Assembly (NCBI GenBank): GCA_029339195.1
Contig: JAPTJF010000127.1
Location: 1 to 64,000, forward strand
Source of the DNA: Micractinium sp. NFX-FRZ
Lineage: Eukaryota > Chlorophyta > Trebouxiophyceae > Chlorellales > Chlorellaceae
Direction of reading: 5' to 3'
Length of the DNA stretch: 64,000 nt
Part shown: positions 16,901-57,100 of the stretch, piece by piece
Position numbering within the stretch: the first letter of the stretch is position 1
Layout: every line of letters starts with the position of its first letter
The notes under the pieces: generated by a model
Told to the model about the DNA's origin: nothing
The model's database searches: none
What the model saw: the letters and a program-made list of their open reading frames with translations, nothing else
Made by a program: the position numbers and the translations under genes

Positions 16901-18915
16901 GCATCCTACCCGCCTCAACGCCAGCGTGCCCCTGACTTGCATCGCTGCCTCACAAGCGCCTCATGCCGTGCTCTCCCCCAACCAGGAAGGAGGGCTGCGC
17001 CACCAGCCCCTAGCACCCAGCGCAACCACCCCCACGCCCGGCATGGTCCTCGCTTCACGTGCGCCTCCCCTCCCTTTGCCCCCCTGCCCACCTGATGCCG
17101 TGCTCCCCCCCAAACAGGAAGGAGGGCTGCGCCACCAGCACCACCCAACCAATCAGCCGGAACACGCCTGCCTCCCTGGCCAGCAGGGTACCTGCCCTCC
17201 TGCCCACCTGATGCCGTGCTCCCCACCAAACAGGAAGGAGGGCTGCGCCACCAGCACCACCCCCAGCATGGCGACCGGGATGCCCAGCACCGTGCTGCCG
17301 CTGGTCTTTTCTCCGAGGATGAAGGGGCTGCGGGTGGAGGAAGGCAAGGTAAAGAAGGGTCGATGGGGTGGGCATCTGAATGCCCGGCCGTGTGCTGCCG
17401 TTGGTCTTCCCACAAAGGATGAAGGGGCTGCGGGTAGAAGGACGCAACCTGACAATGATCCCTAAACACCTGCCCACACTGCCTCCTACTCCACACCTCC
17501 CCAAGGGTCCCTGCCCACCTGCCTGCCTGCCTGCCTACCCCCCAGCTGCCCTTCGCCTGCCCCCCCAGCTGCCCTCCAAAACCTCACACGCCTCGCTGCC
17601 CGCCCGCCCATGCACCTGAGCGCAGCCACAAAGATGGGCGACAGGAATGACAGCACGCTTGCATCCGCCAGGGGGAGCAGGCTGACGGCGAGGTATAGGG
17701 AGGAGACAGAGAGGAAGCCCAGCACGCCGCGCAGCACCAGCAGCCAGCGGCGGCTGTGCAGGAGGAGGGCGGATGCAGGCGGCAGGTGAGGAGGGGGGTG
17801 GGACACGGCAGGCGGGGCAGCAGGGCGGGAACGGGTGATGAACTTGTGAGGAAGGGGTCACGCGAACGATCCATGGCAGCCCTCGGGGACAGGCACTGGC
17901 CCGCCCAACGTGCCCCAGGGTCTGTCAAAGGCAGCTGCCAACTTGCGGCCCATGAAGAGGTTGACTCTGGTAGTGCAGCAGCCATGAAAGAAGATCACAT
18001 TCCCCTTCCCCCAAAACATCTCATGTCCCAGCATTCAACCCCGGCTCACTTGCGGTCCCGGAAGGGGTTCACTCGATAGTACAGCAGCTCCGGGCCGGTG
18101 AACAGGACCAGGATGAGGGAGCGGGTGAGCACAATCTCGAACACGCCGATGCCCTGGCTGCCTGCAGGCGGCAAGGCGAGCAAGAGAGAGGAGGTGGTGA
18201 AGCATGCCTAGCCTGGCGGGGTGCTGCGCAGCGGAAGGGAACCAGAGCGAGGGCGGAGGGCGCCGGAACAGGAAGGGGAGGGCGGACAATGGGCGGGAGA
18301 ATGGTGCAAGGTTACAAAAAGCAGTGCTACCAAGGCAGGACTGGGCTGCCAGAAGCTGGCGCTCACGAAAGGCGAGGTGCAAGGCAAGGCGCCGCCGCCG
18401 CCCACCCCGTGCCCGCCTGCCTCCCTGCCCGCCCGCCCCCTGTATCCCCCATCCTCACACCCTTGGCACACACACGCTTTGCCCCGTGCCACTGCTGTAA
18501 CCCAATCTCACCTGAGACCTTGGCAAACAGGCTCATGCCGGTGCCGAACACCGTTGAGAGAGCATTGAGGAGCAAGCCATACTGCTCCCGCCTGTGCGCC
18601 CGCTTCTCCTCCTGCGCCTGCTCCAGCAGCCTCTGCTCAAGGTCTTGCGCCTCCGGATCTATGGTCACCCGGCTGGCGGCTAGGGAGATGGGGTTGGCGC
18701 TGGGCGGCCCATGGGGCAGCAGGGGGGTGCGGAGGTCGGAGGCGCCGCCGCTCGGGGGCTGCAGGGTGCGGGCGGCGGGGCAGGCAGGTGGGTCACGTGG
18801 GTGAGCCGACGGCAACCTGGTGCGGCTCGGGCTGCCGATTTATGAGCTCCAATGGTGTGTGCAGAGCAATGGAGGCGGGGTGGGAGGGTTGGGACTCGGA
18901 CGCGGAGCGCACCAT
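13914..18915 (-). CDS. Drug/metabolite transporter (EamA, SLC35G-like), ten predicted membrane segments
   Basis: Eleven exons in transcript order: 18915-18817, 18758-18512, 18161-18050, 17753-17616, 17327-17208, 16594-16520, 16265-16198, 15955-15873, 15605-15526, 15123-15064 and 14670-13914; 612 residues, phases close. Exons 2-11 encode about ten hydrophobic helices. LLPLADASVLSFLSPIFVA followed by PFILGEKTSGSTVLGIP is the EamA signature (a helix ending in SPIF, then a short loop with Gly-Glu-Lys). Family members move small solutes across membranes; the substrate cannot be read from sequence. The C-terminal 235 residues are polar and hold STARLGGAASTRS twice. Exon 1 and the 58-base intron 1 are the weakest part: without the splice the frame hits TGA, and no ATG exists in exon 2 before the first helix. 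The start is 236 bases from that of the divergent amino-acid transporter. Confidence 0.85.
16622..16731. repeat. 37-base minisatellite, three copies
   Basis: Units begin CAGGCGGGTGAGGCGG at 16622, 16659 and 16696, with a partial fourth at 16732. They lie in the intron between exons 5 and 6 of the transporter and differ at a few positions. Confidence 0.9.
16950..17445 (-). repeat. Decayed copies of transporter exon 5 on both sides of the real exon
   Basis: The real exon is 17208-17327. Its 3' part and donor (plus strand CTGATGCCGTGCTCCCC...CAGGAAGGAGGGCTGCGCC) recur near 17092 and again, more decayed, near 16960. Its 5' end and acceptor (GAAGGGGCTGCGGGT) recur at 17421, exactly 100 bases from the real copy at 17321. 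The copies are not open in the exon frame throughout. Confidence 0.85.
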
Positions 18916-19151
18916 GAAGGAGTGCCAGCGGCTCCTGTTCAGGTTGGCACAGCGAGAAGAGCGATGTAGATCGCAGCGAAAACCTGTGCAGCTAACCAAG
19001 CACAGGCCAGTTCGGAATCAGAGGAATGTGCTTCTCCTCGCCAGCTGGCGCGCCCGCGAAGCTGGCCGACGAAGCCGGCCCGAAGGAGGCTAGGGTGCTG
19101 CTCTTGTGCTGATCACGCCGTCGTTCCGTTGTCCTGCCAAAAGTTGCGGCA
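18916..19151. promoter_or_regulatory. Shared divergent promoter of two transporter genes
   Basis: A 236-base gap between the start codons of the DMT transporter (-) and the AAAP transporter (+). Both promoters and 5' UTRs must fit here, so regulation may be shared. I see no TATA box or obvious motif. Confidence 0.55.
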
Positions 19152-22100
19152 ATGTCAGCCCGCGACACTCGTGCCGCAGGGCGCCCCGCCTTCCTGCTTC
19201 CGCCTGCGCCGCCGCCTGCCCCGCCGCCGCCCCCACGGCCTGGCCAGCAGGGAAGCCTGGCAGGGCCCCTGCTACCCCACCGTGCCAGCGCAGGCTGGCA
19301 GGGGCGCTCTGGTGCTGGGTACCGGGCCGAGTCTGGCGGGGGCGAGCACCCCGCCGACGACGCCAGCATCGGCGGCAGCAGCGGCAGCGGTGACAATGGC
19401 GGGTGGTTTGGCCAGGCGGGGCAGGTGTCAAAGGTGCTGGCCAACCTGATCAACTCTGGCATTGGCACCTCAACCGGTAAGTAAGAGAGTGGAACCATTG
19501 GGAAACGCATTCACGAGCTATTGCTGCCGCCAACCGGCGGTTGCCTCTTTGGCACGGCGATCTGCGCCCGGCCGACAGACCATCATTTCAGATTGGCAGG
19601 TTGGCAGGTGTGCCCTGCACTCACCCGGCATCAGGAGATTACATTGCACGCCCCTACGTTCCCACCCGCCTGACCTGCAGTGGCGATGCCGCTGGCGGTG
19701 TGGACGCTGGGCGTGGGCGTGGCAGTGGGCGCCATGCTGCTGCAGGCCACGCTGGGGGTGCTGGCCAATCACATCATATCCAGGTGAGCAGGTGTTAAGT
19801 CCAAATTAATTCGTTTGAAGAGCCCAAGACTGGCTGCTGGGAGGGGCAAGGGATCCCATTGGTCTGCTGTGCACGCTGCGCGACATCTCTTCTGGCCCCC
19901 CAGCCCCCCTTCACAACCCCCCACTCTCTGCTCGAGCTCCCCCCCTTCCCGAGGCCTGCAGGGAGAGCGACCGTGAGGAGGCGGGCTCCTACCACGACCT
20001 GATGTGCTCGCGCTACGGCAAGTGGGGCGGCCGCGGGGTGGCGCTGGCGCAGGTGAGCATATGTGGGCGGGTTGATTGCAAGGGAGTGTGTGTGTGTTTG
20101 TTGTATACTGGGGGCTGGGTGGAAAGTGCGGGCGAGCGGCATAAGGAGGCGGGTGGGTGTGGCCAGTGGCGCCGCACCCGGCAGCGTGGTGAAGGGCCCT
20201 GCACGCTCTGCATGCCCTGCAGGCTGTGCTCTGCTCAGAGCCCTTTAAACGTCTCTCGCTTGGCTGCCTCTGCTTCCAGGCGAGGCGTGCGATCTAGTTC
20301 TCTGTTTTGACCCGCCCTCAATCTCACGTGGTTGGCATTTGTCTTGCCTTGTGAGCGGCATCTCGCCTGTGCGCACCCTGCCCAAAATTTGCGCACCCCG
20401 CTCCCGCCCGCCCTGTAACCTCTCTAATGCTTTCCGCCCTTCACCCCTACGCCCCCCACCCCGCCTTTAGATGATCAACTCCCTGGGCAAGACGGTGGTG
20501 TGGCTCATCATTCTGGCAGACCTCATCGTGGGCAGGTGGACGGAAGCTGCGTCTTGCAAGAATCGTGGGGGGAAGTGGGGGTGGAGGAAGCTCACCCCCA
20601 GCACCCCCAGCGGGTTGTGGTGCACACGGCAGTTGACAAGTTGGGACGGCAGGGCACAGATGACTAGCTGGAGAGAAGCAATGCCTGATGGTAGCCAGCG
20701 AGCCGCGTCTGCTTCTGCCTTCTCATCCCTGCTGCTGTGCACTGCCCCCAATCCGCCCTTGCCCCTCCCCCGTGGTTGACCCATTCATGCACTGCTCGCA
20801 AGCGCCCATCCTCCCCTCCGTCACTTTTGCTCTGTACAGTGGCACCGCGCCGGTGCCAGAGCTGCTGCACTGAGCTTGATGACCTGGCCTCCGCTCACGC
20901 CTCCCTTCCAATGTTCCCCCTTCCAATTGCCCCCTCCCGCACAACTCGGGAGACGGCAGCCAGAGCTGCTGCACTAAGCCTGATGACCTGGTCTCCGCTC
21001 ACGCCCCCACACTTCCCTCGTTTCCAATTGCCCCCCTCACAAACCCACAGCTCCGGAGATGGCACCGGTCTGCTGCCAGAGCTGCTGCAGGCGGCAGGGC
21101 GCGACGACCTGGCCTCCTCGGACGCCTGGTTCATGCGCCGCTGGCCCTGGATCCTGCTGCTGGCGGCAACCGCCACCCCTGTGGTGTCAGGTGTGCTCTC
21201 TGCTGTCACTAGAAGCCCATTCTCCCATACCTTTCCTCCGCCTCCCTATTGGATCTGCCCGGTGCAGCGTGCAGCGTGGACAAGCTGCATGTCTGAATTT
21301 ACGCCAAAAGTGTCAAGTCGAGGCTCAGTAAAGCTCCCCATCCCGTGCTCCCCCTCACACCGCACCTGGTTCATGTTTTGTGTGCCTCTGCACCTGCAGT
21401 GCGCAGCCTGGACAAGCTATCGGGGGTGAGCCTGCTGGGGGACGCTGCGGTGACGCTGATGGCGCTGACCGGCCTCGTGCTAACAGGTGGGCCTTGGGAG
21501 TAGTGTGGGGGCCCAGCCCAAACAAGTGTGTGGGGTTGACTTTGCATGCCTTGGCTGGCTGGCTGGCCGGTTGCCGGCTGCCTGGCTGGCTCCTTGGTGC
21601 CTACCTGCCTCCCAGCCTGCCTGCCAGCTGCTGCTGCTCGCCTCGCAGCACTTTGCTTAGGCTCCAAAACAGCCCAACAACTTGCTGTGCCCTCACGCCC
21701 ACCCGCCCCCTGTTGAATTCTGCTGCAGGCATCGCCGTGCGGCAGGGCAAGGCGCACAGCATCCGCTGGCTGCCCAACAAAGGTGAGGCCACCTCCCGGG
21801 CGGCAGCGAAGCAGGGAGGGCGGTGCACACCCACTACTGAACAGCAGCCACGCATGTGCACGCAGCGCGCGCAGCAGCTGCGGGCCTAAATCCCTCAGCA
21901 CTCCACACACTTGGGTCCACAGCTGTGGCGACGGGTCGCCAACCCCACCTGCCCTGCCGCCCTGGTGCTTGCTCCCTTCCCTGCCGCCGTTCGAAGCTTC
22001 CTGCTGCAAACACGCGCCTCCACCCCACCTGCCCTCCCGCCCTTGCGCTTCCTGTGCCGGTCCCCACCGCTGCAGAGGATGCTGGCGTCAGCTCCCCAGC

Positions 22101-24445
22101 CCGCCTGGCCCTGGAGGTGGTCTCTGTGTTCCCCGTCATGATGGGGGCGGCCTTCACGCAGAACAACATCAACAGCGTGGTGGGTGGAGTGTTGTAATGG
22201 CCTGAGTAGCAGTGTGGTTCATAGGTCAAGTTGTGAGCGGGGAACAACATCAACAGCGTGTTGGGTTGGGTTGGGTGGGGCTCAGCTACCAGGGCATTAC
22301 ATGGCTCCCAGTCATGGTAGAGGTGGCCTTCACCTCAGAACAACATCAACAGCGTGGTGGGTGGGGCGGGGCGGTGCAAGGAGTGCAGGGTGCAGGGCGG
22401 GCAGCCGGGCACCGGAGAGCTGCAGGCACCAGGCACACTGCATGCCCCCGCATACTTGGCGTTCCCTGTGCCCACCTGACCCGCTCCCCTGCCCCGCACC
22501 CCCCACCCGGAGCAGATGGGAGAGCTGCGCCCCTACCGGCAGGGCGTGCTGGACTTCACCCAGGTGAGCTCTGCTTTAAACCATGATTCACGAGTGTGGA
22601 GCGGCTGCCTTGGGCTCCTGCCCAGCTGTACCCCGGAACATGCCTTTTAGCGTGCACGCAGCGGGTTGCTTGCTGCCTCCTGCTGGCAGTACCGCCTGCT
22701 GTGCATGAAGACTCCAGCGCCCAGCCTTGCCCTGCCGCCTCCCTGGCGCTGGTTTGCATCGCAGTGACTGGCCCCTCTCCCCCCCGACGTGCAGGCCACC
22801 GCCCGCCTCATCACCATTGGCGTCTTCCTCACCATTGGCATCTCAAACTACCTCGTGTTCGGCCCCGACCTCAAGGTGTGTGCATGTTCTTGATGACAAT
22901 TGAGCAGGGGGATGCGTTCTGTGGCCCGCCCTCCTACCGGCGCAAGTGTTTGTGGGCGACTTTGGCGGTGCAGGCTTCCGCCTGATGCGGAGGTGTGCAG
23001 AGCAGCAAGGTGAATGCAAGATTTGCCGGGCTGGGGCAGCCGAACTTCGGCTCGCTGTTGATCTGTGGGTGCAGCATTTATGCCTGCCTCCCTTGCTCAC
23101 CCGTCCTCTCCTCCACCCCACTCAACCCCACCCGCGCGTGCCGCCACATGCGCACAGCCCGACTTCCTGCCCAACTACAGTGCCTCCAGCCTGGGCGACC
23201 TGCTGCCCAGCAAGCCCTCACAAGTGCGTTCCCCCGGTGCCTCCCACCCCCTGCCCTGCAGCCCGACGTGCTGATCAACTACAGCGCCTCCAGCCTGGGT
23301 GACCTGCTGGCCGCCAAGCCCGCCCTCTACCTGTCGGCGGCGGTCAAGTTCTCCTTCCTCATCAATGGCCTCGTCTCCCTACCCATGTACCTCTGGCCCT
23401 ACCAGGTATGGTCTGACTGAAACCCATAGTGGCGGGTTTCAGTCAGACATGGGAATAGATTGTGGGCCAGGCCGGCGGTTCTCACTGCACGTGCCCGATG
23501 CCTGCAACCGCCCGGCCCTCCTCTGCCGGCCACCCCGTGCCCGCTCGCCTCCCGCTCCTCCTGCTCCCCCTCCTCACTCTCCCAGCACACCCACTGCGCC
23601 CACCTGCTCTGCACTCTTCCTCCTGCACAAGTGTTTGGCACACTGCCCACTGCGCTCGCTCCCCCCTGCCTGCAGCGCAACCTGTGGGCTGCCCTGCCCC
23701 GTGAGTCTCCTGAGGCACGCATGAACGACCCCCGCTCCTTTGCCTTCACCAACATCGCCTCCTTGGCGGGTGAGCGGGTGCCAGGTTGGGGACAGGAGGG
23801 AGGATGTGGATGGGACGTGTGAGGATTAAGGTTGCACTGCTTGAATACCTCGCTTCTTGCCCCCGCCGCGGCCGGCATCGCCTTGCTGGGCCAGCCCAGT
23901 TGGCTGCACAACCCCCGTGCAGCACATCAACTCCCCTTTTGCTGCTACTTGCGACTCATCTCTACCCCCGGCCATGTCCCTCGCCCCCGCAGGCTGCACT
24001 CTGGTGGCGCTGCTGGTCCCGTCCATCTGGAAGCCGCTCAAGCTGCTGGGAGGCACGGCAGGTGGGCCTTTGCCGCCGACCCTTGTGGAGCATGGGGTGC
24101 TGCCTGTGCATGAGATGTGCGTGGCGTGCTGCCAAGCATGCTGAGCAAATCGGCATGCTGACGCCAGGCACTGCCTCCGCCTGGCGTTGGTCTCCCCCGC
24201 ATGGGCCACCCACCCGCTGACTTGTCCTGGAGGCCTCACCACTACTGATTTCACCAATGCCCCACCCTCGTCCTGTGGCTGCAGTGAGCTGCATGGCATT
24301 TGTCTTCCCCGGCCTCATCGTGCTGCGCAGCCAGGGCGGCGGCGGGCGCACCGCCTGGGACCGCACGCTGTGGGCGCTGGGATGGGTGCTGGTCGGGGTG
24401 GGGCTGCTGCAGGCGGCTGCCAGCATTGTTTCGCAATTCACCTAA
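19152..24445 (+). CDS. AAAP-family amino acid transporter (AVT/SLC38-like)
   Basis: Fourteen exons: 19152-19476, 19681-19783, 19962-20052, 20471-20535, 21051-21190, 21400-21486, 21729-21782, 22076-22179, 22516-22563, 22795-22875, 23262-23405, 23676-23769, 23993-24061 and 24285-24445; 521 residues, all phases close. Start context GGCAATGTC. The first 100 residues are Pro/Gly-rich and disordered. The membrane part opens with NLINSGIGTSTVAMPLAVW, the conserved first helix of the family, and continues through VFPVMMGAAFTQNNIN, TIGISNYLVFGPD, VSLPMYLWP and FVFPGLIVLRS; about ten or eleven helices in all. Family members carry amino acids across plasma or vacuolar membranes by proton coupling. Substrate unknown. 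The sequence 23158-23223 is a near copy of the start of exon 11 and could be used as an extra in-frame exon. Confidence 0.88.
20840..21070 (+). repeat. Two decayed copies of AAAP exon 5 upstream of it
   Basis: GCCAGAGCTGCTGC occurs at 20855, 20959 and, in the real exon, 21075 (spacing 104 and 116). Each copy continues into a GACCTGGCCTCC-like stretch. The upstream copies carry stop codons (TGA, TAA), so they are not coding. Confidence 0.85.
22162..22360 (+). repeat. Three copies of the AAAP exon 8 donor region
   Basis: AACAACATCAACAGCGTG followed by a GGTGGG- or TTGGG-type sequence starts at 22162 (real exon end), 22243 and 22339. Copies two and three lie in the following intron; the third keeps a GTGGGT donor. 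Confidence 0.85.
23158..23223 (+). repeat. In-frame duplicate of AAAP exon 11 start (possible cassette exon)
   Basis: After a CACAG acceptor, 66 bases encode PDFLPNYSASSLGDLLPSKP plus SQ and end at CAA|GTGCGT. The real exon 11 at 23262 begins PDVLINYSASSLGDLLAAKP. Spacing is 104 bases. Both splice sites and the phase are intact. Confidence 0.8.
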
Positions 24446-24457
24446 GAGAGGACATTC

Positions 24458-24462
24458 TTACA
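24458..24462 (-). terminator. Candidate TGTAA poly(A) signal of the truncated RING gene
   Basis: Plus-strand TTACA about 245 bases beyond the RING stop at 24706. Used only if that gene is transcribed. Confidence 0.35.
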
Positions 24463-25817: not shown

Positions 25818-27527
25818 ATGGACTTCAACATGGGCCGAACGCCAGCTACTAGCGTGTGTAGCACACGGGCAGAGCTCCGCCTGCACAGCGCTGCCCGCAC
25901 CCCCGGCAGGATCCCCTGCCTGGTAGCGCTCTATGAAGCTTTGGCACAGGGAGACGTTGACGTGAACAACGAGCAGCCGGACGAGGGGTTCCCCCTCTGC
26001 AGTGCGGCCTGCAACTCCGACCCAGGGGCGGCCGCTTCAGCCATTGCGGTTTTGGTTGCAGAGGGAGCCACGCAGAAGCAGGACGCCCTGCTGGCAGCGG
26101 CGGCGCACAACCCCAGCTCTGAGGCGGCGGTAGCAGCAATGAACGCCCTGCTGGCAGCTGGGGCCACGGTGGAGGGGCGTGCTGGCTTCACTCTCCTGCA
26201 ACGTGCAGTGGACAGCTGCCCGCAGGCCATTCCCCGTCTGGTCGCCGCAGGGGCCTCCCTGGGTATGGCTGATATTGCCTTGGGAGAGGAGCCTCTCCTG
26301 TGCCGTGCCGCTGGGCTCGGCTCCAGCAGCACAGCTGCAGCAGCCATACGGGCCCTAGCTGCTGCCGGCGTTGACATGCGCAGCACCAGCGGTGGGCGCC
26401 ACATTCCCATGCACCGTGCCGCCCAAAACACCAGCCCGCAGGCTGCAGCTGCAGCCATAGCTGCTCTGGTGGCAGCCGGCGCTAGCCCGTCGTCCCTCGA
26501 CACTGCAGGCTGCACGCCACTGCACAGCGCTGCTTTGAACAGCAATGCAGCGGCAGCTGCAGCCGCCATCAACGCTCTGGCAGAGGCTGGCTGCGACGTG
26601 AATGCCAGAGCTCCCAGCATTGGCACCGCGCTGCACGCCGCATCTCAGAACAGCGACAGGGAGGCAGCGGCTGTGGCCATTGCTGCACTGGCGGCTGAGG
26701 GGGCACGCGTGACTGCTCGAGATGAAAGGCACTGCACCCCGCTGATGGCGGCATGCATGAGGGGCGACCCGGCAGTAGCGGTTGCAGCTGCCGAGGCGTT
26801 GCTTGGTGTCGGCGCAGACGTCAATGCAGTGGATGACAGGGGCAGCACCGCACTGCATTTGGCGCTGCAATATGGCTGCAGCGCAGCCAAAGGCAGGGCG
26901 CTGGTCTCGCTGCTAGCAGCAGCAGGGGCCAAAGTGAATGCCAAGGACCGCCTGGGGCGCACACCGCTGATGCTGGCAGCTGCAAGCCCCAACGGCGAGG
27001 CAGCAGTTGCCGCCATCCAAGCGCTGGCATTGGCCGGGGCTGATGTGACCCCGTCGGAGCCATTGGTGACGGCAATTCAGCAGGGCAAGTCGCCAGCTGT
27101 GCTGGAGGCGCTGTCGGCAGGCCGCGGGCTGGGGCCCATCGCAGCTGCCTTCTCAGCAGTGCAGGCAGAGCTGAAGCGTCAGATGGAGCAGCTGCGAGCC
27201 AACCACACCCTTGAGCTGAATCGTCGGATGGAGCAGCTGCGAGCCAACCAAAACGCTGAGATGAAGCGTCAGATGGAGCAGCTGCGAGCCAACCACAACG
27301 CTGAGCTGAAGCGTCAGATGGAGCAGCTCCAAGCCAACCACAAGGCTGAGCAGGCCAAGCAAGAAGAGCAGCATTGCGCAGTGTGCTGGGCCGCGCCCCG
27401 CAGCGCCGCGCTGCTGCCCTGCGGGCACTTTGTCTTCTGCAAGCCCTGCGCGGAGCGGTACCGCGGGAAGGGGTGCCCTGTGTGCCGCAGGGTGGCCACC
27501 AGTGTCACCCCTATCTACATGCCTTGA
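25818..27527 (+). CDS. Ankyrin-repeat protein with coiled coil and C-terminal RING finger (putative E3 ligase)
   Basis: One uninterrupted exon, 569 residues, starting at GCGATGGAC. Residues 20-430 contain about ten ankyrin-type units, lengthened by an inserted Ala-rich helix (AAAAAINALAEAGCDVNA type); clear ones include GCTPLHSAALNSN, GSTALHLALQYGC and GRTPLMLAAASPN. Residues 455-515 are a coiled coil built from a 14-residue unit (LKRQMEQLRANHNAE) repeated four to five times in DNA as well as protein. The end is an XIAP-like C3HC4 RING: CAVC, LPCGH, CKPC and CPVC. Such proteins usually bind a substrate through the ankyrins and transfer ubiquitin; substrate unknown. It is the only full-length gene in the window without introns, which suggests recent amplification or retrocopy origin. 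An inverted fragment of it lies at 24706-25026. Confidence 0.88.
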   Translation: MDFNMGRTPATSVCSTRAELRLHSAARTPGRIPCLVALYEALAQGDVDVNNEQPDEGFPLCSAACNSDPGAAASAIAVLVAEGATQKQDALLAAAAHNPSSEAAVAAMNALLAAGATVEGRAGFTLLQRAVDSCPQAIPRLVAAGASLGMADIALGEEPLLCRAAGLGSSSTAAAAIRALAAAGVDMRSTSGGRHIPMHRAAQNTSPQAAAAAIAALVAAGASPSSLDTAGCTPLHSAALNSNAAAAAAAINALAEAGCDVNARAPSIGTALHAASQNSDREAAAVAIAALAAEGARVTARDERHCTPLMAACMRGDPAVAVAAAEALLGVGADVNAVDDRGSTALHLALQYGCSAAKGRALVSLLAAAGAKVNAKDRLGRTPLMLAAASPNGEAAVAAIQALALAGADVTPSEPLVTAIQQGKSPAVLEALSAGRGLGPIAAAFSAVQAELKRQMEQLRANHTLELNRRMEQLRANQNAEMKRQMEQLRANHNAELKRQMEQLQANHKAEQAKQEEQHCAVCWAAPRSAALLPCGHFVFCKPCAERYRGKGCPVCRRVATSVTPIYMP

Positions 27528-28155: not shown

Positions 28156-30214
28156 ATGGAGGCGGGCCCTGGACCGCACAGCCTGTCGGCCCCGCCGCAC
28201 ACCGGCACCACCATCGTGGCCTGCTGCTATGCCGGCGGCGTGGTGATCGGAGCCGACTCCCGTGTCAGCACCGGCACCTACGTCTCTAACCGAGCCAGCG
28301 ACAAGATCACCTCGCTCTCGGACAACGTGTACTTGCTGCGATCGGGCTCCGCGGCAGACACACAAGCAGTGGCGGACTATGGTGGGTGATACTGACATGC
28401 GCTGGCGGGGGAGGAAGCCGCTGCGGCGTTCGCTTTGCGCGCCCTCTTTTGTCTGAGCGCCGCTCCCTCCTCCCCGCCCCTGCAGTGCGGTACTTCACGG
28501 AGTCGCACGAGATGCAGCTGCAGAGAACGCCGACGGTACACACGGTGGCCAACCTGGTCAAGGAGGTGTGCGGGCGGGCGGCGGCACGGTGGGGCCGGAA
28601 GTGGCGGGGTGGAGGTAGCACGAGGCAGGCAATGCAGTGACAGCAGCCAAGCAGGCTGCACTGCGGCCGAGCGTGGTCTGTATGCCAAATGGCCTGCAGC
28701 ACACTGACAGCGCCTCGAGACACTGCCTGACCTTCTACCTCATTCCGCTGGCCTCCTCCCCTTCCTGCTGTGGCGCCCCTATTCAGATGAACTACCAGTA
28801 CAAGCACCTGGTGGGGGCGATGATTGTGGCGGGGTGGGATGAGCGGGAGGGCGGCCAGGTGCGCATCATTTTGCGTGGGCTAGGGCCTGGCGGTCATACA
28901 TGCAGGCAGCAGACCAAGCGCAACTGTGCTTGCAGTCGTGCAGGCAGGCGGCAGGGCAAGCACGACTGCACATGTGCTTAGCCTGTTGAGCGGAGGTGGT
29001 AGCATGCGGCAGGGAGGTGCCGCCGTGGTGCCAATCAGTGGTGCACCTGCTGCAGCTTGGTCTCCCCGAGGCTCCTGTACCATCTGCAACTGGCCAGCAG
29101 CGGTTTGCACGGTGCAGGTGTGTGGCTGCCCCACTGGCGGCCCCATCATGCGCCTGCAATCACGCACATAATCAACTAGTCAACTCACATTGTTTGCTTA
29201 TTATGTTGCAGGTGTATGGCTGCCCCATTGGCGGCACGATCACACGGGAGCCATGGACCACCGACGGCTCCGGCAGCACCTTCCTCTGGGGCTTCCTGGA
29301 CTCGGAGTTCAAGTAAGAAAAGAGTGCTGTGGTTTGGGGGAGGGTGCCAGATTGGGCTGGTTTCAAATAACAGGGGGGCTGGCTTGGTTTAAGAGCACCT
29401 TCCTCTGGGGCTTCCGCGACTCGGAGTTCAAGTAAGGGAGGGCATGCCCTGTCTGCCCGGGCAGCGCTGCTGCAGTTTGCGGGAGGATGCCATCTTGGGC
29501 TGGTTTTAAATGAGAGGGAGGTGGCTAAGTTTAACAGCATTTCCCTCTGGGTTTTCCTGGACTCAAGAGTGCAAGAGAGGGGCTAGTGCCGGCTGCGGTT
29601 GATGCAGGGTGGCAGCTTGGGCTGCAGGCAGGGGATGAGCTGGCAGGAGGTGGAGGACCTGGTGGCAACTGCGCCTGCCATTCCTGCCCTTGCCTCCCGA
29701 CCGTTTGCTGACTGCCCTGCCTGCAGGGAGGGGATGAGCCAGCAAGAGGCGGAGGACCTGGTGGCCACAGCGCTGGCGCTGGCCATGTCGAGAGACGGGT
29801 CGTCGGGCGGCGTGATCCGGTGAGGGCAGCGGGGCTTCAGGGACGGACAGGAGTTGAAGGCGGCACAGGCAGCACTTGTGCTGACCTGCTCCTGTCCTTT
29901 GGCTATGCAGGCGTGCGGTTTGAACACTTGCAGCCCCCCCCCCCGCTGCCCAACGCACGTCCTCCTGCTTCCCTGCGCTTGGCCGGTCCCCTCTCCTTCC
30001 CTGCCGCAGGCTGGTGACGATAAACAAGGAGGGGGCGCCACAACGGTCAATTCCACCTTACCTACCTGCTAACCCTGCCTCCCCTACCCTTCCCCTCCCC
30101 CCTGGCAGGCTGGTGACGATAAACAAGGAGGGGGCGCAGCGGCGGATGATCACACCGGAGGAGCACCCGGTGTTCTGGGACGAGATCCCGGCGCCACACG
30201 GCATGCTGGTATGA
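28156..30214 (+). CDS. PBA1: 20S proteasome subunit beta-1 (caspase-like catalytic subunit)
   Basis: Six exons: 28156-28381, 28486-28565, 28787-28858, 29212-29312, 29727-29819 and 30109-30214; 225 residues, all phases close. The ATG at 28156 gives a 17-residue propeptide ending PPHTG, cut before the catalytic Thr ([11 protein letters not shown]). [20 protein letters not shown] carries the conserved Asp and Lys of the Ntn-hydrolase site; [11 protein letters not shown] and [11 protein letters not shown] are hallmark beta-1 segments. It cleaves after acidic residues inside the 20S core of the 26S proteasome in cytosol and nucleus. Length agrees with plant PBA1. Introns 3, 4 and 5 carry copies of neighbouring exon edges, including a second acceptor with 36 bases of matching sequence at 30010. 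Confidence 0.95.
29118..30044 (+). repeat. Series of exon-edge copies in the introns of proteasome beta-1
   Basis: Copy of exon 4 start at 29118 (GTGTGTGGCTGCCCCACTGG; real 29212). Copies of exon 4 end at 29397 and, more decayed, near 29537 (real 29278); the surrounding 120-base unit repeats too. Copy of exon 5 start at 29627 (real 29727, spacing 100). Copy of exon 6 start at 30010 (real 30109, spacing 99). Confidence 0.9.
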
Positions 30215-39460: not shown

Positions 39461-43918
<4,458 letters not shown>

Positions 43919-44713: not shown

Positions 44714-46223
44714 CTAGAGCTTTGAGCGCGGGCCTTGCTGCCCCGCCTGCTCGCGCTGCTGCCGCTGTTCCTTCTCCTCCCGCTGCTGCCGCTTCTCGTT
44801 CTCCTCCCGCTGCTGCGCAATCAGCTGCTCCATGGTCGGCTCCTCCTGGGCAATGAACTTCACGTGCGTTCCCTGCAGCGTGTGGTGGCACAGTTGACAA
44901 CAAGAACGCTCCCTCAAGTTGACGTGGACGAAATACAACTGCATATGTGGCAGTGCAATGAGCACGGCTGCCCTGCTGTGCGCTGGGATGGCTAACCCTC
45001 CCTCAGCGCCAGCAGCACCCCAGAGGCGTGGCCAGCCAGCCCCACACCTCCTGCCCTCCTGCCAGGCCATGGTCACAACACAGGCACAACCCTTGGGTAC
45101 ACAGCGGCCTGTCCCCCCGTACCTGCGCAACCACCGCCCCCGAGGCCTGGTCAGTCAGCTTCACATCGATGACGCCAATCGTCCTCCCCGTCTTGACCAC
45201 CTGCAGGGGGGAGAGGGGCAAGGGTGGGGCCTCAGTTGGCAGCGCTGCGGAGGCATTCATGCAGGCGCGCTTCAGACAGCCTCACATCACATCAATGATG
45301 CCAGCGCTTGACACCTGCCCACGCCACCGCCAGCATGCTGCCCCACACCAAGCCTTGACTGGCGGGACTGCTGCTGCATCGCTGGCATGCGCATCCCCCT
45401 ACCAGCCAAGACCTCCCTCACCTGCGCCTCCACCAGCACGCTGCCCCCCAGCGGGCCTGCCAATGTCACCATTCCTGCTGCTGCATAGCTGGCAGCATAC
45501 CCACGCACATGACAGTCACATGCCCCCCCCAGTGGGGCCTTGACTACATAACTGCTGCTGCTTCGTTGGTATGCATATCCCCCTGTTAGCCTCCCCCACC
45601 TGCGCCTCCACCAGCACGCTGCCCCCCAGCGGCGCCTTGCTGAGGTATGTAGTGTTTATGTTCAGGCTGACCCCGCCCTTGGGGCTGACGGTGACCAGCG
45701 CTGCTGAGCCAACTGTGTCCACCAGTGTGGCTGCAGAGGCAGGCAGCAGGATGACAGACGGACACAGCAGATGCGGTTAGGAGGGTCAGCCCTGAGCCAA
45801 CTGCTGTCCAGTAGTGTGGCTGGAGGCACGCAAGAAAGTGGGCCGTGGGAGCAAGCCAGGGCGGGGGCAGGGCATGATGAAGGTTGAGTGTGGCTGTGTG
45901 GGCAGCGCATGCTTGTCGTGGGTGCGCCTGGCCTGGCGCCGCCTGGCAAGTGCGTGTCTCAAGCTGTTGCCAGGGGCACCCACAACAATCACTCAGTTCA
46001 TTCCCTTCATCTCCTGCCACACACCTATGCACCCGCCATGCAGCGTGCCGTAGCGGTTTGCCACTTCCGGGCTGACTGGGAGCACCGCTATGAACCGACC
46101 AGGCTGGGCGGCAAAGCTATGCAGCCCGGAGAGCGTGGTTGTGTCCCACTGCATGCTGGCGCCGCTGCCGTCGCGCTGGCTGGTGCAGCCGCGCATGAAC
46201 GCCAGGGCGAGATCAGTTGACAT
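44714..46223 (-). CDS. Hotdog-fold acyl-CoA thioesterase (ACOT13/THEM2-like)
   Basis: Four exons in transcript order: 46223-46025, 45730-45600, 45200-45123 and 44872-44714; 188 residues, all phases close. YGTLHGGCIATLVDTVG contains the HGG motif of PaaI-type hotdog thioesterases. SLNINTTYLSKAPLGGSVLVEAQVVKTGRTIGVIDVKL is the strand-rich core, and GTHVKFI closes the fold. Members hydrolyse acyl-CoA esters as tetramers, often in mitochondria. The last 35 residues are unusual: a highly charged Gln/Glu/Arg helix (EENEKRQQREEKEQRQQREQ) that may form a coiled coil. No clear transit peptide. Intron 2 carries a copy of the exon 2 end. Confidence 0.9.
45350..45460 (-). repeat. Copy of thioesterase exon 2 end in the adjacent intron
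   Basis: CTGCGCCTCCACCAGCACGC with its donor recurs at 45422 and, in the real exon, at 45600 (spacing 178). The flanking sequence from about 45357 also matches that from about 45537, so the unit is about 180 bases. The copy keeps an intact donor (CAG|GTGAGG). Confidence 0.85.
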
Positions 46224-46787: not shown

Positions 46788-49700
46788 TCATTCGGTGCGC
46801 AGCTCAGCGGCGCCCCAGGCCAGGCGGGACTGCCCCTGCATGAGCGCCACTCGATCCAGGGCCCAGCCGGCAGCGTCCAGCGCAGCCAGGAAGCTGCCGT
46901 AGCCACTGATGCAGCTTCCCTTGCCAGCTGGTCCCATATTGTCTGCTCCCTTGCCACCTGCCAGCCACGCGTCCACGTCAGCAAGTGCCAGCTGGGCGGC
47001 AGCCGGCCAGAGCTTGGAGGATTGCACCCCGCTGCCGCAGCCCTGTTGCGCACGATATGCCAGCATGAGCGCCGCGCAGTAAGCTTCCAGGACGTCTGCT
47101 GACGTGGCGCCCTGGCGAAGCAGGACCACAGCATCCAGACCGGCGCACCCAGCAGCAGCTTCCCCTGCAGCTGCCACGGCAAGGTACTGCTGTCCGCTGT
47201 CGCTCTGCGCCGCCTGCTGCAGCTGGGCCGCCAGCTGGCGCTGCAGCGGCGCGCTCTGCATCGCAAGAAAGCGCCGGGAGCGGATGCCACTGTATCAAGC
47301 GCGCCAGGCTGCCAGACGCAATTGCAGTGCACTGGGCAGCTGCAAGAGCGGACGCCACGGATGCACCAACCAGGTAGAGGTGCCTGCACCAGGAACAGCC
47401 TAGCAGCCCAAACCTGCACACATCCCGCCCATGCAGCTGCTCCCTAGTGCGACGGTTGGTGGCGGTGCCACCGCAGCTTCCCAGCCTGATGTGCGCTTGC
47501 TTTCTTACCACAAGCCCAAGACAGCTCTCCATGCCACACGCACTCACCAAGCTGGAAAGCCGCGGCGCCACCGCCACCAGCGGCCCTCCGGCAGCGGTCA
47601 GCCCACCCAGGCCCAGCAGGCGCAGCAGGCGCTGCAGCGGGGGCGGCACCAAGCTCTCCTGCGCCGCCAGCTCAGCGGGCGTCAGCGCCTCGCCCTGGCA
47701 TTGTGGAAAATAAGAGAGAGCGGGAAAGGTGGGGAGGGGGAGGGCAGGACAGACAACGGGTGGGTTGACAGGCATGCAGGTAGGCAGGCAGCGGTTGATT
47801 GGATTGACAGGCAGGCGGGCAGAGGGCCCTCGGATGCACAGGTTGGTTGGATCAAGTGCACATGAACACCATGGTTTACAGGATCCCGCGGCAAGAGGCA
47901 ACTGGCTCAATAGCAGAGTAACGGCCCCACCCACAGCAGGGTGCCTCCTCCACACAGCAAATGCCCACTTCACCCCAAACACTCACGAGAGTGGTGTTCT
48001 TAGCGCCCCATTATCAATACACCCCACCCCACCCCACCCCACCCCACCCAAAACAAAAGCACCCCAGCACACGCACCGTGCAGAGGTAGTGTCTCAGCAG
48101 GAGTCCCAGGCGGGCCTGGTTGATGCCGCTGATGCGCAGGCAGCGCATGGCCAGCACGTTTGCATACACGTGCACCGCTGTGAGGGCCCAGAAGGCCGCC
48201 CAGGTGAGCAGGGGGTGCCCCTGGGCCAGGCGAATGAGGGCCATGCCAAGCACCATGCCCACCAGGGTCACCGCTGTCTCCTGCGGTGGGGCGTGGGGGG
48301 CATGGGGTGCAGCACACACCGCGGCATCAGGCTGTGCAGCAAAACACTTGATGGCAGGCAAGAGGTGGCCGTCAAAAGGAGCACCATCCCTAGAACCGTA
48401 TCAACCAGTGGCAACGCAACTCCGGCCGCGGCGAGTGTGTGCGGCGGCGGCACTCGAGGGCGAGGCAGGGAGCACACACCCGACGGGTGCAGTGCACGCA
48501 GGCGGCACTGGGGTGCAACCCCGCTCCCCTGCTGGGCAGGAGCACTGCTGAGCTGGCAGCATGGCCCAAACGGCGGCGCTGCCCCAGCGGCGGGAGGCAG
48601 GCGGCAGCCTCTCATGCAGAAACACAAGAACACCACACTGACACACACACACCTGCGCGGCACCCTCTCATGCAGACACACACAAAGACGCACACCAACA
48701 CACACGCGCACCTGCGAACCTTCCTTGGCTGCTATGTCTGCTGCGTTCCTCTGCCGAGCAAAGTGCTGCGTCAGCGCCATGCGTGTGGCGCCGCCCGCCA
48801 CCCCCGTCACCGCTCGCGCCACGGAGCCCAGGCAGGCGAGCAGCAGGAAGGCGCCAGGGATCAGCGGCGAGGCGAGCTCCAGAGCCATGCCTGCGGGGGC
48901 GGAGTGAAGGGTGCATTGGGGAAGGTAAGAGGGAGGGGGAAGGGACGCGGGGAGAAGCGGGGGGAAGGCGGGGGTAGTAATGAGGGGGTGGGGAAGGAGA
49001 GGATGGCAGGTGAGCATGAGTGGGTGGGCAGGGTGGTGGGCACCCAGGGCGCCCGGCTGCTGCGCTCCCTCTGGCTGTCCCTGGCACCCAGGCAGCCTTC
49101 CCAAGCGGCGCACTTGTACTCTTCCAGTCCTTTAAGGCGCACTCACCTGCATCGTTCATGACGTCGGCAAACAGCCTCCACTGCTTGGCGTAGCAGTCAA
49201 AGCCGCGCCCCTGGGAGGAGGCAAACAGGATGCCGCCCACCATGCCGGCCAGGTCCTTGAGGAAAAACTGCAGGGAAGGGAAGGAGGCACGCATGAAAGC
49301 ATGTTTGACAGGTGGAAAGCGGCGAGGCAGGGGAGAAGCCACGGAAATTGCCGCCCAGTATGCTGGCCAGGCCCTCGAGGACAAACTGCAGGGAAGGTAA
49401 GGAGGTACGAAAGGCATGTTGGGCTGGCAGGAAGTGGCGAGGCAGGGGAGGGGGCACAGAGAGCGCCGCCCAGCATGGCCGGAAGGTGCGTGAGTCGTGC
49501 ATGCAGGTTGGGGAAGAGGGTAGCAGGAACAAACAAGTGCTGGCCCGACAGCGAGGGGCTATTCGAACACCCCCCCCAACCTCACACCTGGAAGACAGCA
49601 TGCACTGAAAGACAGAACCAGCACCCACCTGAATAGCAGCACCCACTTAAGGGACAGCACCCACCTGGAACACCGCACCCAGCGGGGTGGCGGCAGAGGA

Positions 49701-52000: not shown

Positions 52001-52705
52001 GGACGGGGGGGAGTGCAGACGCCTATAGGGTGCCGCTGCTGGGACGCCTGCCAAGTGGCCGGGACGTTGGCAACGCTCTGGAGAGCCCTCAGACTATACA
52101 GCCTTCGTGGCAGGAGGGGCCCCTGCCTGGGCTGCCCCTGGCGGCAACTTCTGGCATGGCCCTCTGCTCCGCATGTGATCCGCCTATGGGCTGCATCCCG
52201 CTTGCTCTACTCTTTGCGCCGTCTCTTACTGATCTCAATACGATCAGTCCCCCCTTGCCGTTCTGTCCCCCTTGCTCCCCCTCGGCCCCATCTGTCCTCT
52301 ATTTGGGTTTCTATGCCTCCATCTTTGCTTCCTGACTCCCTCAGCTGCACTGCAAGTCACGACCCAATTCAACTGCACGTTGTCATCCATCCCGGCACCA
52401 GGACAAATCTGCAGGGGACTGGGCGGGGGGTGCTGCCTGCCGCTGCGGGCGCTAAAACCAGACGTGCCGGTACCACCATCGTGCACCAGTTTGTCACCAG
52501 AACTCCACAGGACTCTCCAGTCAACACAGAATTGGCTTTGTTCTGACAAGGGCAGAGCAACTTGAAAGACTTGAGATCCAGGCCCAGGAAACAGAGGCTG
52601 GAGGCGCCGTGGCTTGCCGCCTGCTTCGTCTGCTGCGCCTCTAGGAGTTGGCGCAAAGCGGGCGGATGCTCGTCAGTTTCAAAACCCGCCCCGCCTCTGG
52701 CAGAG
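52001..52705. other. Intergenic region between the FKBP and RPC11 genes
   Basis: 705 bases; 3' UTR of FKBP and promoter of RPC11. I see no TGTAA and no gene. Confidence 0.5.
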
Positions 52706-54120
52706 ATGAATTGCTTCTGCCCCACCTGCGGCAACCTCCTGCTCGGTGCGTCGCTGCAGCCCAGCCTGCCGAGAGCTGGCTGGGAGGGTAGTGGGGATTC
52801 TGTGCACCTGGGGGTGCGCAGGACCACTTAAAGGCTGCAATGTGCCAGGCGTCGGGCCTGGGGATAGCCCGCCGAAGTCTTCCTGCCCCATGCCCCAGTG
52901 CTCGGCGCCCCAGGCGGGCCCCCACCCCCCGGATCTGGGGCGGCTGCGATTCATAAAACCGCATTGATCAACAGGTTCGGGAGCCGGCCTTACCGTGAGT
53001 GCTGCCTACAGCTCAGCTGCTCACCGCCGCCGCCGCCGCTGTCCGTGCCTGCTGATTCACTCTGCAGTCGAGATTGCCAACGGAGAGAACATCTACGCCT
53101 GCCAGACCTGTCCCTACGTCTACTACATCGACCGTAAGGTGAGGAGCAGGCAGGGTCGGTATTGCACGTGCTGCCGTCTCGCCGCCATTCACAATCGCGC
53201 CGCCGCCCACCCGCCGCGTCGCTCTCGCTTTGCCCCCGCCCGCCCCATGTGCACCCTACCCTACCACACCTCTTGTTCTTGCGCCACAGATCACCAAGGG
53301 CGTGCCCATCAAGCGCAAGGAAGTGGAGGCTGTGCTGGGTGGAGAGGAGGAGTGGAAGAACGCGGCGCGTACCGACGGTGTGTTGGCAGGCGTGCTGTAC
53401 GTACGGGCGCATGCCGGAAGTGGGGAGCAGCCAGCAGCTGGGCAGTGCGCTGTGATGGTGTGCGTGCTGGCTGTGGGGCAGCCGGGGGTTGACTAATACG
53501 CTGTGCTGGCGAGTGGGAGCAGAGCTGGGTGGTTGGAGAGCCGGCTGGTGGGTGAGGGATGCCGAGAGGCTGGGTGGCACAGCCAGGTGGGAGGTGGGTG
53601 CTGGCTGTTCAGGGTTGGACGGGGCGTGCAGCTACGGCAGCTGAGGATAGCTGCCGCTGCTGCCGAGAGGGAGTGTGCGACGGCTGTGTGCTGCTAACGT
53701 CGATGGCTCTCGTGGGAGGCTCGCCAGCTGCAGACCCTGCCCCTTTCAGCAGCCCTGTTCCGCTGGCCCCCTGGCCTCTTCGCTGACCTAGGTGTTGCAT
53801 CCCGCTGCCGTGCCTGCCTATCCCTGTGTGCAGCCCGCTGCCCCGACTGCAGCCACCACCAGGCATACTTCAAGGAGGTCCAGGTGGGTGCTGCGTCGCC
53901 TTGCAAGGGAGGATTGGACTGTCCGTGACAGCTGTCACCACCCATGCTCTGTTGTAAGCAACTGGGATGCACTTGGTACTGGCGGGCCACGTGTCAAACA
54001 ACTACCCCCTGATGTTTGTTGCGGTGCCCTGGTCGCGCCCTGCAGATCAGATCTGCCGACGAGCCCGCCACACTCTTCTTCCGTTGTGCCAAGTGCGCCT
54101 GCAACTGGCGGGAGGGCTGA
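52706..54120 (+). CDS. RPC11: DNA-directed RNA polymerase III subunit C11 (TFIIS-like)
   Basis: Five exons: 52706-52745, 53068-53138, 53290-53377, 53834-53883 and 54046-54120; 107 residues, the usual length of the subunit, all phases close. N-terminal zinc ribbon: MNCFCPTCGNLLL paired with CQTCPYVYYI. C-terminal TFIIS-type ribbon: CPDCSHHQAYFKEVQIRSADEP followed by RCAKCACNW. The acidic pair in RSADEP reaches the polymerase active site and is needed for RNA 3' cleavage, termination and re-initiation by Pol III. Nuclear. Only 75 bases separate its stop from the next start codon on the same strand. Confidence 0.95.
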
Positions 54121-54195
54121 GCCTATCCTAGCAGCAGCAGTGGCAGGCACACCACCAGCAGCAGCGACAGCAGCAGCAGCAGCACCACCACCACC

Positions 54196-57100
54196 ATGCA
54201 GGCAGTGGCGAGCGCAGCCAGCCGGTGCGGCACGGGCGCCAGCGTATGCAGCGCGCGGAAGCCGCACCCCGCGCGCCAGCTCAGCGCCGCGGCGCCGGCG
54301 CCGCGGGCGCCCCGCGCGCCGCGCCTGCACACTGCAGCACCCGTGGCACGCAGTCAGCAGGAGGAGCGGGTGCATCAAAAGGCGCATGCTTCCCACCAGA
54401 AGGCGGTGGATGCCATTACCCAGCTGGAGGTACTGAAGCGGGAGCGGGCAGCTTCCCAGCAGCTGCGTGCTGAGCTGGACGCCAGGTGAGGGTGCGCACT
54501 CGTGGGCTCGGATGGCTTCTTTCACTGCAGCACCACGTGCATGCCGTACTGGCATTTGACGGATTGCCTCCTCCTGGCACCTGCTGCCCTGGCTGCCCTG
54601 ATGATTTGGCACCTGCTGACCCCTGGCTGACCTGTCGATCCGGCACCTGCTGACCTGGCATGCAGGACGCGGGCCATGGCCAACATGCAGCAGCAGCTGG
54701 AGCAGATGGAGGCGCTGAGGCATGCAGAGGCAGAGGCGGCAGCTGCCAGGTAACACTGTGTTCTGTGCATGTTGGTGATGATGCACGCTTGGATGCCGCT
54801 TGGTTGAGAGGTGGAGGTCTACGTGGCAGCACAGGCAAAGGGGCACAGTGGCATATGTGCAGGTGGAGCAGCTGCCCACCGCGGCGGGCATTAATGCCGG
54901 TGAGCTGCCGGCAGTGCGCCCTTTGGCCTCGGCTCCCAAATGCCGACGGCTGCCACATCTTGTCCCACCCGCCTGCGCAGGTTCCACGAGTTCGAGCAGG
55001 CCCTGGCCCTGGCAGAGTACAGCATCGACGGTGACGACGTCGGAGGCCTGCAGGTGCGCGAGCCGCAAGGCGTGGCGGGGCAGAGGCGTGTGGCTTCTGA
55101 AGCATGCATGGCGTGCACTGGCACGAGCGCTGCGTGCCTGCCACTCCCTTCTGGTGCTGCGCGCTGCCCGACCGTCTTCTTGAGAGTATTGCATTCTTGA
55201 CCACGAACTTACGCACGCCCACCCCTGGCTCATCCGCCCGTGCGCCAGGTGGTGGCCCTGGAGCAGCGGCTGGCGGCCAAGGAGGCTGAGCTGGCGACAG
55301 CTCAGCAGCTGCTGTCCGAGCTGCAGCGCCGGCAGCAGCAGCAGGCGGAGGAGCTCAAGAGGCAAGGGGCGAGCGCCGAGGAGGTGGCCGCCCTCAGGCG
55401 GCAGATGCAGGAGCAGCAGGGGATGATGCGGGAGGCGGCCGCCGCTGCCGAGGTGGGCGGGGAGGGAGTGGGGTGTGGAGGGTGTGGATATGGGGTAGGG
55501 AAAGAAGAAGGGGAAGCGGGCGAGCAGGATGTTGGGAGGCGGTGCAGCAGTGCGCTGGATGTTACGCCCTCTAAGGCGCCCTGACTATCGTTTGCGAGCA
55601 GTGGGCAGCAGAAGCGGAAGTATCCGCAGCTAGTTGGGCCGTGTTCTGTATGTCCCATTTTCGGCACCGCCAGAGCCGCCCAGATGGCACACCCCGTTCT
55701 GTCTCCCACATTCCGTGCACTCGTCACCCGCTTGCCGCTGTCCCACCCACGCTCCTCGTGCTGTGCACCTCCGTGCAGTCTGCCGAGGCTGAGCGGTCCG
55801 CTCTGGAGGACCAAGTCTCAGCGCTGCTGGAGCAGTCTGTCCTGCTGCGCCGCCAGCTGGAGAAGCGGGACGCTGAGCTGGCGCTGCGTCAACGGGAGCT
55901 GGAAAGTGCGCGGCAGGAAAGCGCGGCCGCCACGTCACGCCTGGCGCAGCTGAGGGAGGCGGTGGCTGTGGAGGCTGCAGCCACGACGGAAGTGCTGGAC
56001 AAGGCCGAGGCTGCTGCCCGCATGCTGGGGGAACAGCTGCTGGCGCTGATGCAGTCACGGCAGGAGGAAGAGGCGGCGGCTGCGGCGGCCGAGGCGGAGC
56101 GCGAGGAGGAGGATGAGGAGGGCGATGAGGTGAGGAGGAGCAACAAGGGGTGGTGCTGCTGCCTGGCTGACCATGGCGGGTGGGGCAGGTGTGGGCTGTT
56201 GAGGCGGGGGAAGGCATTGGCACGGCTGGTGCGGCATGTGCCCCAGCCCTCGGCACACTGGTGCGCCCATATATCTGCTCCTCCTTGTTGTTGGCAGTGC
56301 CGCGATGCTTGGGACGAACCTGCTTTTGCCGTGCCACCGCCAACTTGTACACACTCCTCATGCCGCCCTCACGCCTCCACTCCCGCGCACCTCCCTGCCG
56401 CCTGCCTCCCGCATTCACCGCCCCCTGCAGGGTGCGAGCTTGCTGGCCGAAGAAATTTCTGTCACATGTCGACTCTGATCTGCCACCTGCTCATATGCTC
56501 ACTCGCTCGCTCACGCTCATTGACACTCAATTGCCCGTTCTTGTCACAAGTTGCAGGGCGTGAGCTTCCTGACAGAGGCGGATGCAGATGCCGTGCTCGT
56601 CGTCAGCTGTCCTCTGCCACCTGCTCATCTGCTCCTCTGCACACTCACGCACCTGTGTCCCACATTGCAGGGCGTGAGCTTCCTGACGGAGGCGGATGCT
56701 GATGCGCTGCTGGACGAGCTCGAATTCCTGCAGCAGCAGCTGGGCAAGCAGCAGCGGGTGGGTGAACACTTTGTTCCTTTCAGTGGGGTGTCACAAAGCG
56801 GCGCTACTATGCTGGAGAGTCGTTTGGGCGAGCGAAGTTCGGCCAGGAGTCGTGGATGTCCTTCTGTCAATCGAAGTTGCAGAGCACGTGGCAAGCACGC
56901 AGCAGCGGGCATGCCACGACTGGTGCAACCCCGGCTGTGATGGTTGTGCATGCCACCCACCTGTTCACTTCTCACAACCTTCCACTGCACTGCACTGCTG
57001 CAGGTGATGGAGGACGCGGTCAGCCGGGCGGCCACCGCCGAGAGCGAGGCAGCCCAGCTGCGCGAGCGCCTGCTGACCTCTGCCGCCGTGGCCACCGCAG

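Follow-up and report, generated by a model that had tools for sequence, protein, structure and literature searches.

Direct copies of exon edges in adjacent introns of Micractinium sp. NFX-FRZ, probably decayed remnants of short tandem duplications

Internal tandem duplications that span splice sites, and the creation of introns from them, have reportedly been described by Gao and Lynch in 2009 and by Hellsten et al. in 2011, and tandem duplication from the repair of staggered nicks is said to have been described by Schiml et al. in 2016. Here, we analyzed a comparable pattern in a window of 64,000 nts from Micractinium sp. NFX-FRZ (contig JAPTJF010000127.1; C127:1-64000), in which copies of exon starts or ends, referred to as echoes, lie in the adjacent introns. 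Like the splice-site-spanning duplications, echoes are short direct duplications that copy splice sites within genes; in contrast to intron creation by internal duplication, most of them are found in mid-intron, away from the far splice site, as decayed remnants. They share direct copies of tens to ~100 bases with staggered-nick duplication, a likeness by size and orientation, with no fresh junctions here. Introner elements also consist of repeated intron-associated sequence, but dispersed near-identical copies of that kind were not found for four echo loci in a DNA search of the same genome that skipped very common words. Minisatellites likewise form head-to-tail copies in introns, some in threes, whereas echoes usually comprise two or three strongly diverged copies, and the plain minisatellites observed here have periods of 15-45 bases (window) or 74 bases (piece L014). 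The pattern appears to be known in kind, and new in its extent and size fall-off.

The parent assembly contains 66.07 Mb in 838 contigs with 65% GC. The window, in which genes are dense, exons short and introns numerous, was examined together with 26 further 10-kb pieces (L-numbered), giving 324 kb or 0.5% of the 66 Mb. Gene models came from a small two-strand hidden Markov gene finder, which was started from a codon table and trained on the 324 kb. It converged on CAG/GTGRG donors and TGCAG/G acceptors (slash, splice site), with a median exon of 80 and a median intron of 187 nts; since several echoes were taken for mini-exons, part of the edge labels is uncertain. Repeat pairs were collected as ungapped direct repeats (+1/-1.5, score at least 25, low complexity removed) with a spacing (d) of 20-3000 nts. 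In a separate edge test, up to 60 exon bases at each of 1,203 exon edges (728 predicted introns) were compared with the adjacent intron at a score of at least 14, and non-adjacent introns served as the null (four draws per edge).

The echo pattern is true within the examined part of the genome. A total of 61 of the 1,203 edges (~5%) echo in the adjacent intron, compared to 0.2 expected, of which the window contributes 16 (of 238 edges) and the other pieces 45 (of 965). The pair scan identified 24 direct pairs in the window, 13 at d 90-119 and none at 60-89 or 250-1999, and 77 pairs in 25 of the other pieces (21 at d 90-119, 8 at 60-89, and 17 at 120-199); addition of the 26th piece left the count at d 90-119 at 21. 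A composition-preserving local shuffle gave 1 pair versus 64 in the real sequence at d 60-200, raw counts that take in the L014 minisatellite (11 of the 64 pairs, two of those at 90-119). Of the 26 other pieces, 19 had one or more echoes (sensitive scan) and 14 had one or more repeat events, whatever their size (strict scan); echo density is uneven across the sampled pieces.

With L014 set aside, 69 pairs within 300 nts were direct and one was inverted, which is the orientation of tandem (head-to-tail) copies. The lone strong inverted repeat (L015, 9531-9649 and about 9638; score 91.5) is the only one within 300 nts at a score of at least 25 in the 324 kb. The L014 sequence (6634-7152), a minisatellite built of many diverged copies of a 74-base unit, was omitted from several counts. 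Grouping yielded 51 events: 39 at edges (one of which, in L007, is a coding repeat reaching an edge), seven apparently intron-only, four exonic, and one intergenic. The smallest spacing was 91-120 in 28 of the 39 edge events and 31-59 in six of the seven intron-only events (one of the six being the L014 minisatellite), and the seventh (d 104, window position 20855) is part of an acceptor-edge array with its exon start at 21051. Introns with echoes are longer than the others (median 282.5 nts, n = 44, versus 211, n = 684; p = 0.0017), a difference that is partly trivial, since only a sufficiently long intron can contain an echo.

The echoes are, in our view, likely to be relics of ordinary head-to-tail duplications, ~50-150 bases in size, that spanned a splice site. 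Short duplications would hit introns generally, and a duplication across a donor or acceptor would be tolerated, since use of the outer splice site leaves the exon unchanged. Selection would then hold the exonic copy while the intronic copy decays at the neutral rate, so that an edge pair should outlast a purely intronic pair, both of whose copies decay. Echoes would cluster at exon edges largely because a pair with one frozen, exonic member loses similarity at half the rate of a pair lying wholly within introns; this edge bias is expected from ascertainment, a point overlooked in the initial annotation, whose proposal of local tandem duplication at both donor and acceptor edges is otherwise supported. 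The source may be an event of local repair or replication whose length is naturally capped near 130 bases; fill-in of staggered nicks and replication slippage are candidates.

When duplications of even ages were simulated in the real gene models, edge pairs made up 61-62%, and for old duplications (k of 0.15-0.25 or more) they made up 93-97%. Old neutral decay with 0.3 indels per substitution gave an edge share of 0.93-0.94 (k 0.15-0.25 and 0.2-0.3), which reproduces the observed share; the observed targets for this share and for the age-mixture fits described below come from a hand tally in which ambiguous cases were placed by eye and one event counted as intron-only (window 20855) is actually an edge array. 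Beyond the splice consensus, the simulated intron profile (k 0.15-0.3, 0.3 indels per substitution) was 0.59, 0.61, and 0.49, compared to 0.59, 0.61, and 0.50 observed. Mean segment identity was 0.871 in the old model versus 0.892 observed, and the match to the splice consensus 0.54 versus 0.68. The old-age model with 0.3 indels per substitution fits several of the statistics, not all. If it is true, 22% of edge duplications are detected, and the 61 echoes would extrapolate to duplications at about one-fifth to one-quarter of edges. Exon edges would act as fossil beds, in which a frozen copy preserves a record of short duplications no longer legible in the rest of the intron, and one genome could reveal how fast introns grow, up to what size limit, and with which neutral mutation spectrum.

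The size spectrum was examined after births had been corrected for detectability under the old-age model. In the sensitive scan, relative births in bins from 52 to 174 bases were 0.74, 0.63, 0.71, 1.0, 0.51, 0.29, and 0.10, and in the stricter scan they fell from 1.0 at 97-111 to 0.04 at 130-149. A flat spectrum across the whole range was rejected under two decay models (p = 1e-16 and 1e-14), while over 52-129 a flat spectrum was rejected in only one of four tests (strict, p = 0.19 and 0.04; sensitive, p = 0.58 and 0.34). The steep drop in births above 130-150 bases is solid. Accordingly, of the preferred unit near 100 bases that had been claimed, a mode near 105 with a ceiling stands and a narrow unit does not. 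Detection artefact was considered as a cause of the spacing and rejected: simulated detectability was 0.19-0.28 for d = 55 to 300 when ages were even and increased with d for old ages, and, being flat or rising, it leaves the fall above 130-150 real. The lower flank of the cluster is weakly constrained, and part of it stems from detectability. Selection against long introns may contribute to the fall-off, but, as estimated from the intron-length histogram, it appears insufficient as a cause, and intron lengths show no periodicity in steps near 105 (z about -0.3 to 0 near 105). The fall-off near 130 bases is testable, and any proposed molecular mechanism must account for it.

Within the window, echoes were found in all eight genes in which they had been reported, namely those for a DMT transporter, an AAAP transporter, proteasome beta-1, a PKA regulatory subunit, thioredoxin reductase, a thioesterase, RUS and a coiled-coil protein. 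The names beta-1, thioredoxin reductase and RUS and the cyclic-nucleotide domain of the PKA regulatory subunit are supported here; DMT, AAAP, thioesterase and coiled-coil are names from the initial annotation only. When 20 raw open reading frames were scanned against Pfam, two matches exceeded the Pfam cut-off and one fell below it; matches were few because the exons are short. The copies are as follows (window positions).

17193-17262, minus strand: DMT transporter, real exon end and donor (exon part from 17208 up)
17077-17146, minus strand: DMT, echo 1 of this exon end (d = 116, 97% over 70 nts; spacer unrelated to both outer flanks)
16959-17010, minus strand: DMT, echo 2 (d = 132 from echo 1, 92% over 52 nts)
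17280-17347, minus strand: DMT, start of the same exon and acceptor
17380-17447, minus strand: DMT, acceptor-edge echo (d = 100, 79% over 68 nts)
20840-21089, plus strand: AAAP transporter, acceptor-edge array with echoes near 20855 and 20959 (d = 104) before the exon copy 21060-21089
21060-21089 versus 20840-20869, plus strand: AAAP, exon copy of this array and its counterpart (d = 220)
22159-22187, plus strand: AAAP, exon end and donor
22242-22281, plus strand: AAAP, donor-edge echo 1 (d = 81)
22336-22377, plus strand: AAAP, donor-edge echo 2 (d = 177 from the exon edge, 96 from echo 1)
23155-23217, plus strand: AAAP, acceptor-edge echo (d = 104 before the exon copy 23262-23321)
29113-29148, plus strand: proteasome beta-1, acceptor-edge echo (d = 94 before the exon start 29212)
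29275-29317, plus strand: beta-1, exon end and GTAAG donor
29394-29436, plus strand: beta-1, donor-edge echo 1 (d = 119, 95%; intron remainder also homologous)
29536-29578, plus strand: beta-1, donor-edge echo 2 (older, 63% to the exon copy)
29622-29674, plus strand: beta-1, acceptor-edge echo (d = 99 before the exon start 29727)
29988-30038, plus strand: beta-1, acceptor-edge echo (d = 99 before the exon start 30109)
32591-32627, minus strand: PKA regulatory subunit, acceptor-edge echo (d = 105 from the exon copy 32486-32522)
41181-41199, plus strand: thioredoxin reductase, acceptor-edge echo (d = 91, 19 nts)
42039-42069, plus strand: thioredoxin reductase, acceptor-edge echo (d = 101; the protein without the echo aligns across the junction with PDB 1vdc)
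43388-43441, plus strand: thioredoxin reductase, acceptor-edge echo (d = 133 before the exon start 43525)
45431-45454, minus strand: thioesterase, donor-edge echo (d = 178, 24 nts exact; exon copy 45609-45632)
49231-49291, minus strand: RUS, exon start and acceptor
49349-49409, minus strand: RUS, acceptor-edge echo (d = 118, 87%; intron remainder homologous; third copy 49446-49524)
56542-56597, plus strand: coiled-coil gene, acceptor-edge echo (d = 114 before the exon start 56671)

Three-copy arrays are present in the DMT, AAAP, beta-1 and RUS genes. For the DMT exon, the residues before and after continue in one frame (17210-17335), and they also do so in a paralogue on contig C429, the query protein being a manual join. 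This contig carries two neighbouring DMT paralogue stretches (C429:9263-11893), in which a single open frame spans residues that an intron interrupts in the window gene; intron loss, a retrocopy, or intron gain in the window copy may account for this difference.

Whether echoes are functional, as alternative splice sites or mini-exons under selection, is a question raised by the gene finder itself, which calls several of them as mini-exons with plausible sites. In 39 pairs (with the coding repeat L007 excluded and 11 further pairs of ambiguous edge type omitted), mismatches by codon position were 0.090/0.091/0.143; inclusion of L007 (40 pairs) gave 0.104/0.110/0.147. Among 429 codons of the 39 pairs, there were 42 synonymous changes, 76 non-synonymous changes and no stops. 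The absence of stops among these 118 changed codons is slightly unexpected and would favour function, but no clear coding constraint, as on an alternative or duplicated coding exon, is seen in these rates and changes, and the higher rate at third positions is as expected if synonymous drift of the exon itself contributes. From exon to echo, changes from AT to GC are favoured (88 of 623 AT sites versus 77 of 1,169 GC sites), consistent with drift in the direction of the composition of this genome. Echoes match the six-base splice consensus less well (0.68) than unrelated real junctions do (0.77), and the decoy splice sites look decayed. Conserved splice sites were thus not seen in echoes, and the suggestion that planted decoy sites matter found no backing. 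Moreover, proteins assembled without the echoes align to PDB relatives across the junctions: residues 10-220 of 225 of beta-1, with the mini-exons left out, align to chain o of 7qve (E 4e-72), and residues 2-321 of 323 of thioredoxin reductase, likewise without mini-exons, to 1vdc (E 5e-126). A 12-residue insertion in thioredoxin reductase relative to 1vdc is probably a false mini-exon. We therefore give almost no weight to functional echoes.

The same codon counts bear on an artefact of assembly or haplotypes, by which fragments of a second haplotype, paralogue or strain would have been strung side by side. The spacing of ~100 resembles a short-read length, and very young tandem copies are few. 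However, mismatches at all codon positions, with non-synonymous changes exceeding synonymous ones, are unlike those between two functional coding homologues, and for four echo loci the 66-Mb assembly contains no second copy of full length: in own-genome searches, the only full-length match was the locus itself, apart from short matches involving other portions of two queries. A search with the DMT protein revealed paralogous stretches on other contigs, at most 59% identical. A second haplotype or a coding paralogue as the source of echoes is countered by the codon positions and the own-genome searches, and an artefact appears highly improbable.

A tandem duplication predicts homology of the intron remainder on one particular side of the edge. 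Among donor edges, such homology (p < 0.05) was found on the predicted side in 7 of 14 cases and on the opposite side in 2 of 14; among acceptor edges, the counts were 4 of 20 and 2 of 20. These counts omit 14 of 48 rows because the spacer is under 25 bases or the edge type is ambiguous. Over both edge types, homology on the predicted side was significant in 11 of the 34 testable pairs and non-significant in 23; one near-complete tandem unit was checked (L024, 5904-5984; 81 of 82 nts, 94%). These figures also speak to exon-edge-specific copying, in which a process linked to splicing or to exon boundaries would put 30-60 edge bases into the intron at a set distance and leave the spacer original. 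The similarity does often end 5-15 nts from the splice site, and edge events outnumber intron-only ones by 39 to 7, six of the seven having a smallest d of 31-59. Nevertheless, the tandem-side homology, the nearly full unit in L024 and the inferior splice consensus of echoes argue against copying of this kind, and ascertainment alone predicts an edge bias, which makes it very unlikely. A broader proposal, that exon edges are a preferred substrate, with a boundary-linked process making or refreshing edge copies ~105 bases into the intron, by which the introns of this lineage largely grew, is rather doubtful.

Echo identity differs between the exon and intron parts. In exon bins it was 0.74 at positions 1-10, 0.82 and 0.81 at 11-30, 0.72 at 31-40, and 0.53 in the last bin, and in the intron it was 0.59-0.61 in bins 7-30 (null 0.55-0.58). 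The contrast between exon bins 11-30 and the intron bins is what homogenisation would produce: after a tandem origin, the intron parts would drift apart, but the exonic copy would repeatedly overwrite its echo through slippage or gene conversion of short tracts. The DMT echo, with 97% identity over 70 nts beside an unrelated spacer, and two AAAP echoes that are identical to the exon over 19 nts, with spacers dissimilar by eye, point in the same direction. On the other hand, old and indel-rich neutral decay yields a similar intron profile unaided, and repeats of ~50 bases would be expected to recombine rarely. Homogenisation is, in our assessment, unlikely.

Several of these observations weigh against simple decay of tandem duplications. 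Even ages (k 0-0.4) predict recognisable spacers in 66-73% of cases, compared to the 11 of 34 seen; 38% intron-only pairs, while the ~100-nt class has none that is clearly so; and 22-51% of events near full length, while the tally gives 4 of 37 edge and intron events at d 60-150. When ages were left free, G2 of the category fits was 373 at 0.1 indels per substitution and 9.1 and 18.3 at 0.3; a good fit was reached only at 0.6-1.0 (G2 3.6 and 3.4), where ~1% of duplications are detected, and the thousands of duplications in 280 kb that this needs make it strained. The better preservation of exon parts than of adjoining intron parts needs mostly old duplications or ~3x faster intron divergence, and the DMT echo, whose spacer is unrelated to either flank, fits badly. 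Moreover, identity was at least 92% in 13 of 32 edge events (spacer at least 25 nts; tally), compared to a share of 0.14-0.15 in the old model, and the simulated exon profile was 0.70, 0.78, 0.76, 0.74, and 0.64 versus the observed 0.74, 0.82, 0.81, 0.72, and 0.53. The tension could be resolved by a scarcity of young duplications, by ~3x faster intron divergence, or by exons refreshing their echoes. The first two keep the simple explanation, and the third is the rival one. Scarce young duplications may reflect a past wave or the collapse of near-identical copies by the assembler, and introns may diverge faster than complex exon-like sequence, for example, by slippage.

Intron gain by tandem duplication, mentioned in the initial annotation as a proposed route, is mostly unseen. 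The echo junction lies within 6 nts of the far splice site, as expected of an intron born from exon duplication, in 6 of the 61 cases, and in the other 55 it does not. Three of the six are beside mini-exon calls of 6, 6, and 17 nts, which are probably echoes called as exons. In the remaining three, L002 1625-1715 (d 91), L004 7237-7358 (d 123), and L016 161-304 (d 142), the intron length is about equal to the echo distance and the flanking exons are ordinary. These introns are candidates for birth by tandem duplication of exon sequence.

Two further features were observed. In the gene models, 90 of the 728 predicted introns begin with GC in place of GT; coming from an untested gene finder, this number is an upper estimate, and none of the 14 introns in the two checked genes begins in this way. 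In addition, a 45-base (15-residue) in-frame repeat is present inside a coding stretch of the window at 27165-27389.

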